A model generated the notes under the pieces. That model was not told where the DNA came from. It worked only from the letters and a program-made list of their open reading frames with translations, and did no database searches. Source: Synergistaceae bacterium (GTDB taxonomy: Bacteria; Synergistota; Synergistia; Synergistales; Synergistaceae). From it: a stretch of DNA of 64,000 nt. This document shows, one piece after another, positions 57,276 to 59,976 of the stretch. Positions within the stretch are counted from its first letter, which is position 1. Every line of letters starts with the position of its first letter. A program made the translations under genes and the position numbers. Where the stretch lies: assembly GCA_030533085.1 (NCBI GenBank), contig JAUNJZ010000006.1, positions 1-64,000 on the forward strand, in the 5' to 3' direction.

Positions 57276-58763
57276 TCAAAATGCTTTGAGCCGCTTCAAT
57301 ATCTCCGCCACGACCATATCTACGTCCACGTTAGCCATGGAGGGGGTTCCGAGGCTGCTTTCGCATATTCCGTCCGGGCATTCCGGCATCGAAGCCTTTA
57401 TCTCCGCCAGAGTGCGTATCGGATAGGCGACAAAGCGCCTGTTTATCAGATTCAGCGGCCCTACGTTGTCGGAGGTCGAGCTTCCCCCCTCCGCTCCGCA
57501 GCCAAGTGTCAGCGCAGGAGGCAGCCCCGTCGTCGCGCCGATACCGCCGAATGTGCTGCCGGTGTTTACTATGATGCGCGTCGCCGGTATGCGGCGGGCG
57601 AAGTAGCTCACTATTTCCTCGTTCTGCGTGTGGATGGAGAAGGTGTGTCCTGCCCCTTCGTAGTGCAGTATCTCTTCGCATTTTTCGCAGACCGCTTTGC
57701 AGTCCGGCGCGGTGAAGAAGGCCAGTATCGGGGCAAGCTTTTCGTTTGAATAGGGATGTCCCCGCCCCACGCCGTCTTCCATAGCGACGATTATCTTTGT
57801 GCCGTTCGGTATGGAAATATTCGCAAGCCCCGCGATGACCTGCGCGTTTCTGCCGACGATCTCCGGGTTCATCGTGCCGTTCGCGCGCAGGATATATTTG
57901 CCGAGCTGTTCGCGCTCCTCCGCGTTGAGGAAATAGCAGCCCTGGCTTTCCATTTCGGCCTTTACCTGCGCGAAGTAGTCGTCCGTGCATATTATTGACT
58001 GCTCCGAGGCGCATACCGTGCCGTTGTCGAATGTCTTTGAGGCGACTATCTGCCGCACCGCGAGTTTAAGATCCGCCGACTGCTCGATGAAAGATGGGCC
58101 GTTGCCGGGGCCGACGCCTATCGCCGGAGTTCCCGATGAGTAGGCGGCGCGCACCATGGCCGCTCCGCCTGTGGCCAGTATCAGCGCCACATCTGTGTGG
58201 CGCATCAGCGAATCTGTCGCCTCTATCGTCGGCGTTGTGATGCAGCAGACGAGATTTTCATCTCCGCCGGCTTCGCTTATCGCCTGGCGTATCACTTTGA
58301 CCGATTCCAGAATGCATCTTTTTGCCTGCGGGTGCGGCGAGAATACTATCGCGTTGCCCGCTTTGATCGATATCAGAGCCTTGTAAAAGGCTGTTGACGT
58401 GGGATTTGTGGAGGGGATAAGCCCCGCTATCACTCCAAGCGGCACAGCGATGGTACGCAGCCTTTTTTCAGGCTCCCAGCCTATCACGCCGACCGTTTTC
58501 AGCTCTTTGATGTATTCGTAGACGCTGCGGCTCGCGAATACGTTTTTTATCTTCTTGTCCGCCGGGACGCCGAAGCCAGTCTCTTCCCAGGCCATCACGC
58601 CCAGTCGCTCGGCGTTGCGCACTCCCGCGCGGGCTATCGATTTGCAGAGACGATCGACATATTCCTGATCCTTCTCTGCAAGGGTGGCCTGCGCCTCTTT
58701 CGCTGCGCCGACCAGTTCGCGCACCTCCTGTACGGACAGAAGGTCTTTATCACGCAGCTGCAT
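57276..58763 (-). CDS. eutE: CoA-acylating acetaldehyde dehydrogenase EutE
   Basis: The product is 495 residues. The catalytic Cys is in DNGTVCASEQS near 250; GVGPGNGPSFIE and VIAGLIPSTNPTSTA are aldehyde-dehydrogenase motifs. It converts acetaldehyde, CoA and NAD+ to acetyl-CoA. There is no long N-terminal targeting tail. A C-terminal tail after residue 460 ends in VDVDMVVAEILKRLKAF, an amphipathic helix that may be the encapsulation peptide. One base from the upstream gene. Confidence 0.95.
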   Translation of the reverse strand: MQLRDKDLLSVQEVRELVGAAKEAQATLAEKDQEYVDRLCKSIARAGVRNAERLGVMAWEETGFGVPADKKIKNVFASRSVYEYIKELKTVGVIGWEPEKRLRTIAVPLGVIAGLIPSTNPTSTAFYKALISIKAGNAIVFSPHPQAKRCILESVKVIRQAISEAGGDENLVCCITTPTIEATDSLMRHTDVALILATGGAAMVRAAYSSGTPAIGVGPGNGPSFIEQSADLKLAVRQIVASKTFDNGTVCASEQSIICTDDYFAQVKAEMESQGCYFLNAEEREQLGKYILRANGTMNPEIVGRNAQVIAGLANISIPNGTKIIVAMEDGVGRGHPYSNEKLAPILAFFTAPDCKAVCEKCEEILHYEGAGHTFSIHTQNEEIVSYFARRIPATRIIVNTGSTFGGIGATTGLPPALTLGCGAEGGSSTSDNVGPLNLINRRFVAYPIRTLAEIKASMPECPDGICESSLGTPSMANVDVDMVVAEILKRLKAF

Positions 58764-58764
58764 T

Positions 58765-59322
58765 TTATCTCTCCTCTTCTCTCATGATCGCATCTATCAG
58801 CGTCGCCTTTGAAAGCTTCCTGATCTTCTCCGCGTTCATTCCGGGAATGTTCATCTGGCGGACGAAGGCGCGCAGCTCCTTGAGCGTCATCGCTTCAAGC
58901 TCTTCTCTGGCCGCGCGCTCCTCACGCGCCAGCTCTTTTTCTATCTCCTCAAGCGCTCCTGGGCTGCCGCCGGCTCCGCTCTCCGCTATCATCGGCAGAG
59001 AGGCGGAGGCCGGGCCTTTATCAGCGTGCGGGGGCTTCGGAGCGCTCAGCGGAGAGCGTGGGGATTCTTCGAGAAGCCACGCCAGCTGAGCGGCGGGACG
59101 AGGTATCAGCGAGGATGAGAGCAGCGCACTCCCCATCGACCCGCGCACGGCGGAGAGTGCGGCGGATACGGCTCCGACGCCGCCGGTGACAAAGACGGAG
59201 ACGAGGCCGCCGCCGTTCAGCGAACAGCTTTGCAGCGAAACGTCGGCCGCCTTGAGAGCGATGTCGAGCGCGTCTATCGCCGGCACGTAGCCGTAAAACT
59301 CCATCAGTCCCAGCGCGTTCAT
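58765..59322 (-). CDS. BMC shell protein with Rho-N/SAP-like C-terminal domain (EutK-like)
   Basis: The product is 185 residues: a BMC domain (about 1-88; LMEFYGYVPAIDALDIALKA, VIPRPxxQL-type SSLIPRPAAQLAWLLE), a Pro/Ala/Ser linker (90-115), a charged helix (EEIEKELAREERAAREE) and a short domain, MTLKELRAFVRQMNIPGMNA plus KIRKLSKATLIDAIM, fitting Rho-N/SAP nucleic-acid-binding folds. EutK of enterobacteria also has an extra nucleic-acid-binding-like domain. This architecture suggests a link between shell and RNA or DNA; the tail's role is inference. Confidence 0.85.
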   Translation of the reverse strand: MNALGLMEFYGYVPAIDALDIALKAADVSLQSCSLNGGGLVSVFVTGGVGAVSAALSAVRGSMGSALLSSSLIPRPAAQLAWLLEESPRSPLSAPKPPHADKGPASASLPMIAESGAGGSPGALEEIEKELAREERAAREELEAMTLKELRAFVRQMNIPGMNAEKIRKLSKATLIDAIMREEER

Positions 59323-59325
59323 CTT

Positions 59326-59976
59326 TTATGCCCTTGGGTTGTCCGCCACGTATTCAACGGCGGCGGCGAAGGCCTCGCAGGCCGCCTTGCAGGCTGACTG
59401 GCTGCCTGTCAGCAGCCCGCCGCCGAAGTTCGTCTCCGACGGCGGCGCGTAGAATACGCACATGCGCACGTCAGCCGCCTTTATTGCCGCGTCGAGGCCG
59501 TAGACGGCCTCAAGAGGCGGCGCGATAAGATAGGCAAGCGGCTCCCCCTCCGGTATCCCGGCGGCTTTTGAAAGATAAGAGCCGGTGCGCGAGATGCAGA
59601 AGGCGTAATATGGGACAGAATCGTCGTCGTTCGCCGATACGAAATGCGCCACATTTTCTATCATCTCCACAGCGGCGGAGAGGCCGCTTTTGACCTCGGC
59701 GGGGTTCGGCCCCGCGAGGATTCCTATTATCTCTCCGGCGAACTTCGTCGTCGCGTTCGGCGCGCCGGCATAGAAGCTTTTCGCGTAGACCACTTCAACG
59801 TCGGCCGCCTTTGTCGCCTCGTCAAGCGCCGTGTATGTAACGTCGTCCGAGTCCGCCGTTATCAGCGCCAGCGAGCGCATTCCGGGCGACAGCCCCAGGT
59901 CCTTCGCCAGAGAGGGATCGACGTTGGGTATTATTTTCGTTGCCAGTACATTTGCCTTTAAGGGATCTCTTTTCAT
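59326..59976 (-). CDS. eutL: EutL, trimeric tandem-BMC shell protein
   Basis: The product is 216 residues. VLATKIIPNVDPSLAKDLGL, KAADVEVVYAKSFYAGA and SETNFGGGLLTGSQSACKA are EutL features. Trimers have a gated pore for larger metabolites such as cobalamin. ATG 59976; gap to eutC is short. Confidence 0.95.
   Translation of the reverse strand: MKRDPLKANVLATKIIPNVDPSLAKDLGLSPGMRSLALITADSDDVTYTALDEATKAADVEVVYAKSFYAGAPNATTKFAGEIIGILAGPNPAEVKSGLSAAVEMIENVAHFVSANDDDSVPYYAFCISRTGSYLSKAAGIPEGEPLAYLIAPPLEAVYGLDAAIKAADVRMCVFYAPPSETNFGGGLLTGSQSACKAACEAFAAAVEYVADNPRA

Follow-up and report, generated by a model that had tools for sequence, protein, structure and literature searches.

In E. coli, eutK lies after eutL. 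The enterobacterial EutK (PRK15466) joins a BMC-H domain through a linker to a small C-terminal domain, the helix-turn-helix EutK_C (PF16365), which has also been suggested to bind nucleic acid; that the EutK slot can encode an extended BMC-H protein whose tail putatively binds nucleic acid is already known from enterobacteria. In Salmonella lacking EutK, Eut BMCs stay at the poles and are less mobile, and the authors of that study raised the possibility of nucleotide binding by the EutK tail, which is positively charged (PMC12487888). BMCs are likewise held at the poles in Salmonella without PduK, whose tail was proposed to leave the concave face and point outward (PMC9132943). More positioning strategies are anticipated (PMC13052382), and a Listeria EutK has been named (PMC8547011). 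At stake is the cellular distribution of metabolosomes that have no McdAB nearby. Here we describe a EutK-slot tail of another fold group, SAP/Rho_N. Our literature search, with subscription papers mostly outside its reach, found no full-text paper on a Rho_N/SAP domain of a BMC shell protein.

The window, the whole stretch of Synergistaceae DNA that we analyzed, is 64,000 nucleotides long. It contains a gene for an extended BMC-H shell protein of 185 residues, laid out as follows with its two immediate neighbors.

57276..58763, minus strand: eutE, acetaldehyde dehydrogenase (acetylating), immediately downstream (NCBIfam TIGR02518, 1.6e-201, above cut-off)
58765..59322, minus strand: gene of the extended BMC-H shell protein in the EutK slot, 185 aa (open reading frame and translation; Pfam BMC, 3.4e-19)
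58771..58899, minus strand: SAP/Rho_N-type helix-loop-helix tail, about residues 142-184 (Rho_N match, pLDDT 93, Foldseek, column conservation)
58891..58962, minus strand: charged helix EEIEKELAREERAAREELEA, residues 121-144, running into the tail (DSSP on both models)
58963..59067, minus strand: linker of about 35 residues, about 86-120, predicted with low confidence (pLDDT below 50 at residues 95-122)
59095..59316, minus strand: BMC domain (PF00936), residues 3-76 (Pfam; AlphaFold2 pLDDT 85-95; Foldseek E < 1e-7)
59326..59976, minus strand: eutL, immediately upstream (NCBIfam EutL, 2.6e-109, above cut-off)

The gene starts 3 bases past the eutL stop and ends 1 base ahead of the eutE start. 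Upstream are eutA, eutB, eutC and eutL; downstream are eutE, two EutM-type genes, a eutT-like gene, a phosphotransacylase gene and others, so that the gene order in the window is eutA-B-C-L, tailed BMC-H, E-M. These neighbors mark 58765-59322 as the EutK slot within a long eut operon, and its product, an extended BMC-H protein encoded directly after eutL, is a EutK by position.

Pfam recognized a single BMC domain in the protein (PF00936, 69 bits against a gathering score of 24.5). The Foldseek matches of this domain included RMM MSM0272, CsoS1, PduJ and C. difficile EutM, all with E < 1e-7, and the best 50 matches of the full-length model were BMC domains only. The product, modeled here as a monomer, is predicted to be a minor hexamer-type shell subunit and may assemble as a hexamer. 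Its incorporation into hexamers is uncertain because the enterobacterial EutK of Klebsiella was found to be monomeric in one study (PMC12058022). Homologs in three related genomes were 53-62% identical to it. The protein fell far below the cut-offs of the EutK and EutM equivalogs of NCBIfam; with EutK (PRK15466) it scored 44.5 bits against a cut-off of 218 and aligned over residues 1-115 only. Three Pfam scans, of the window protein and homologous tails, did not list EutK_C (PF16365) among their matches. Homology of the tail to EutK_C was rejected for lack of a profile match. The initial annotation had stated that enterobacterial EutK carries a different extra domain, and this was borne out: the two proteins share the slot after eutL and the overall architecture, but EutK_C is a helix-turn-helix and the window tail is of the SAP/Rho_N type, with no profile relation between them. 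The window type of EutK would then be convergent with the enterobacterial one. PduK is also an extended BMC-H protein and is needed for BMC distribution in Salmonella; unlike the window tail, its tail is not SAP-like but Cys-rich, possibly with an iron-sulphur cluster.

The linker and charged helix that had been proposed between the BMC domain and the tail are supported by pLDDT and DSSP, and conservation of the helix is found mainly among the closest relatives. The tail itself, which in the translation contains the two sequences quoted in the initial annotation, MTLKELRAFVRQMNIPGMNA and KIRKLSKATLIDAIM, had been said to fit a Rho_N/SAP-like fold. Pfam matched residues 141-181 of the window protein to Rho_N (PF07498) at 1.2e-3 and 19.2 bits, below the cut-off of 24.9. 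The tail alone reached 20.9 bits, still under that threshold, and gave 0.074 with SAP (PF02037); the window protein had no significant single SAP match. Among 41 homologous tails, however, 29 matched Rho_N (best 2.7e-9) and 22 matched SAP, weakly (best 1.1e-5), which argues that the resemblance of the window tail to Rho_N is not due to chance.

As a control, a profile built from Rho N-domains only was run against the 41 real tails and 4,100 shuffled ones. The real tails had a median of 18.7 bits, and 31 of them outscored the best of the shuffles, which reached 13.2 bits with a 99th percentile of 5.2. The window tail, at 12.5 bits, came just under the single best shuffle and well over the 99th percentile. 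When a profile of the tails was searched over whole Synergistaceae genomes, BMC tails ranked first and Rho itself came next. Over Clostridia genomes the next matches were mostly in long, Rho-sized frames, and the one that was read is Rho. The nearest relatives of the tail outside BMC proteins therefore appear to be the N-domains of Rho, with which it has the signature L-[RK]...K-x-x-L-[IV] in common. A PDB sequence search gave no match with the window tail alone and Rho at 0.0028 with a nine-tail profile. It is not decisive for the tail, because a 41-tail profile ranked the NLRP4 pyrin domain (0.011) above Rho (0.073).

AlphaFold2 modeled the tail, as a 63-residue fragment starting at residue 123 with an alignment of 41 sequences, at a pLDDT of 93. 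DSSP assigned helices to positions 2-22, 25-35, 42-47 and 50-62 of the fragment. The 35 PDB matches listed by Foldseek all had an E-value above 1, and about a third of them were FAN1, 3'hExo, Rho or T4 endonuclease VII. These had query TM scores of 0.41-0.63, mostly 0.48-0.63, and the best SAP matches, which are the best fold matches of the tail, had an rmsd of 1.5-2.1. The part of FAN1 and 3'hExo that aligned is one that we take, from known structures, to be their SAP domain. Since the Foldseek E-values are above 1, assignment to the fold group rests on several consistent weak matches together with the profiles. The tail has the marks of the SAP/Rho_N group, a helix, an extended loop and a helix with the L-R/K and K-x-x-L-I motifs at columns 150, 151, 172 and 175. 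The profiles, the structure prediction and the fold comparison thus agree with what had been read from the letters. To our knowledge, a SAP domain is not otherwise known on a shell protein.

This kinship raises the question of whether the tail binds RNA as the N-terminal region of Rho does, holding eut mRNA or another RNA at the shell and, for example, coupling translation to assembly or influencing operon transcription. The nearest sequence relative is the N-domain of an RNA-binding factor, and one Foldseek match is a structure of 3'hExo bound to an RNA stem-loop. The tail nevertheless differs from Rho in having about five extra residues, which form a short extra helix, between its two main helices, and it has no attached OB fold or ATPase. 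Primary RNA binding by Rho is the work of the OB fold, and SAP domains, to which the tail is equally similar, bind DNA. We consider RNA as the ligand decidedly unlikely.

Searched with the window protein by itself, our genome collection yielded no relatives, and profile A1 was required for that scan. The tail is common to nine Synergistaceae proteins even though their linkers differ in length and sequence. Within the Synergistaceae, the domain was found on a BMC protein in 14 of 27 eutB-positive genomes and in none of 26 eutB-negative ones, as raw counts uncorrected for kinship and assembly gaps. Because 13 of the 27 lack it, the domain is not essential. In one genome (G036) no BMC-H gene was found between eutL and eutE. 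Scanning reference genomes with a profile extended the family to Clostridia, Lachnospiraceae, Peptostreptococcaceae, Enterococcus and Streptococcus, and 34 of the 35 Firmicute loci with a tail have the order eutL, tailed BMC-H, eutE. The exception (L042:3552-4507) has a EutS-like gene and the tailed BMC-H beside genes that, named by eye, are rbfA-, truB- and ribF-like. It is likely a satellite locus, since the other BMC genes of that genome sit elsewhere.

The EutK-slot proteins of L. monocytogenes and C. difficile are annotated only as BMC domain-containing proteins. Both carry the tail in the same slot, with tail-profile scores of 50.7 and 36.7 bits, respectively (the E-values of these scores refer to a five-sequence database). 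Pfam found only the BMC domain in the C. difficile protein and, in the Listeria protein, BMC plus one marginal unrelated match (0.058), with no SAP or Rho_N in either. The tail is also present in Brochothrix, S. suis and S. sanguinis. Many gut bacteria have a related tail at this point of the operon, and in Synergistaceae and Firmicutes, among them Listeria and C. difficile, it is a family-wide trait of the EutK-slot protein.

Linkers ranged from about 32 to 149 residues across the homologs and were mostly acidic. They diverge fast, whereas conservation of the tails is about equal to that of the BMC domain. Ten close Firmicute pairs were compared, and in most of them linker dN was far above tail dN (0.29 against 0.02 for L055/L060; 0.30 against 0.01 for L061/L075), so in most of these pairs the tail is under strong purifying selection beside a fast-changing linker. 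The argument rests on the Firmicute pairs because the one from the window's own clade, G015/G029, is less clear, with a dN/dS of 0.46 for the tail and 0.24 for the linker at near-saturated dS. Selection of this kind counts against a solubility or spacer domain without a specific ligand, as do the conservation of basic positions and the recurrence of the domain at the N-terminus of another BMC-H (G072, G069). The 13 eutB-positive Synergistaceae that do without the domain would suit such a spacer, which we regard as most improbable.

Position 151 and position 172 are K or R in all 41 sequences, position 168 in 85% and position 155 in 78%; in the window tail this basic set is R151, R155, R168 and K172. 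Most relatives are also basic at positions 164, 165 and 171, where the window protein carries A, E and S; in their place it has lysines at 166 and 169. With a net charge of +3 over its last 41 residues (145-185), the window tail is no more than mildly basic, an acidic helix stands before it, and its Rho_N match is below the Pfam gathering score. Together with the missing basic residues and the Foldseek E-values above 1, these features count against nucleic-acid binding by this particular tail. In genome G001 the EutK-slot BMC-H (L144:4843-5238) ends in a Lys-rich stretch, VEKTAKTKPAATKKPKATKKK (including TKPAATKKPKATKKK), that is histone-H1-like in its Lys, Ala and Pro, and a Pfam scan found no SAP-like domain in that tail. 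We find plausible the initial suggestion that the tail may bring RNA or DNA to the shell; the conserved basic positions and the Lys-rich tail in the same slot of G001 strengthen it.

Our main reading is that the protein is the EutK of Gram-positive bacteria and Synergistota and that the organelles are distributed through binding of its tail to nucleic acid, most likely the nucleoid. We put its probability at roughly 45%. The BMC domain would seat the protein in the shell, and the flexible linker would let several tails reach outward. The basic face of R151, R155, R168 and K172 would bind nucleic acid, chiefly nucleoid DNA, held loosely and with no sequence preference. Many weak contacts of this kind would spread the organelles and prevent polar clustering. 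Nucleoid binding for distribution is favored because loss of EutK or PduK in Salmonella keeps BMCs polar, and it is by analogy with those mutants that we ascribe a positioning role to the tail.

SAP-like folds can also bind proteins, and the tail may instead be a protein-protein module for cargo enzymes, EutQ, EutL or another shell tile, in the manner of an encapsulation peptide. Encapsulation peptides are short helical domains on disordered linkers (PMC12339742). The conservation of the tail together with the eut operon fits an internal partner, and the mild charge of the window tail is also in keeping with one. The recognizable fold relatives of the tail, on the other hand, bind nucleic acid, its invariant positions are K/R and not hydrophobic surface, and in G001 a Lys-rich tail takes its place in the slot. 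We judge a protein partner unlikely.

Should the tail indeed bind the nucleoid, a roughly 45-residue module of widespread eut operons, including those of Listeria and C. difficile, would give a directly testable answer to how such metabolosomes are distributed, and the EutK slot would be defined by function and not by one domain family. A broader proposal, tentative and in our view somewhat doubtful, is that the eut BMCs of Firmicutes and Synergistota are positioned passively on the nucleoid through multivalent SAP/Rho_N tails, as an alternative to the McdAB ATPase, and that SAP/Rho_N, helix-turn-helix and Lys-rich modules were fitted several times to the same shell subunit.

Extended shell proteins of several other kinds were seen. 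In two genomes, the slot after eutL holds an N-terminal SAP/Rho_N-like domain fused to an EutM-type BMC-H (L138:6412-7020 in G072; L139:5476-6114 in G069). Both fusion genes have a conserved ribosome-binding-like AGGGAGG ahead of an internal ATG, which could also yield plain EutM. In Enterococcus avium (G088), the tail domain is on the BMC-H of a second BMC locus (L165, C1:800540-801145) with EutN-, EutQ- and EutE-like neighbors. The window's own genome has a second, pdu-type BMC locus on contig C2, where the extended BMC-H (L112:7297-7809) has a linker that is acidic and Pro-rich and, in place of the SAP-like domain, a short basic end, PQPKAKKTPKKR. At other BMC loci the extended BMC-H ends in a Cys-rich (L063, L082) or an Arg/Lys-rich (L073) stretch.
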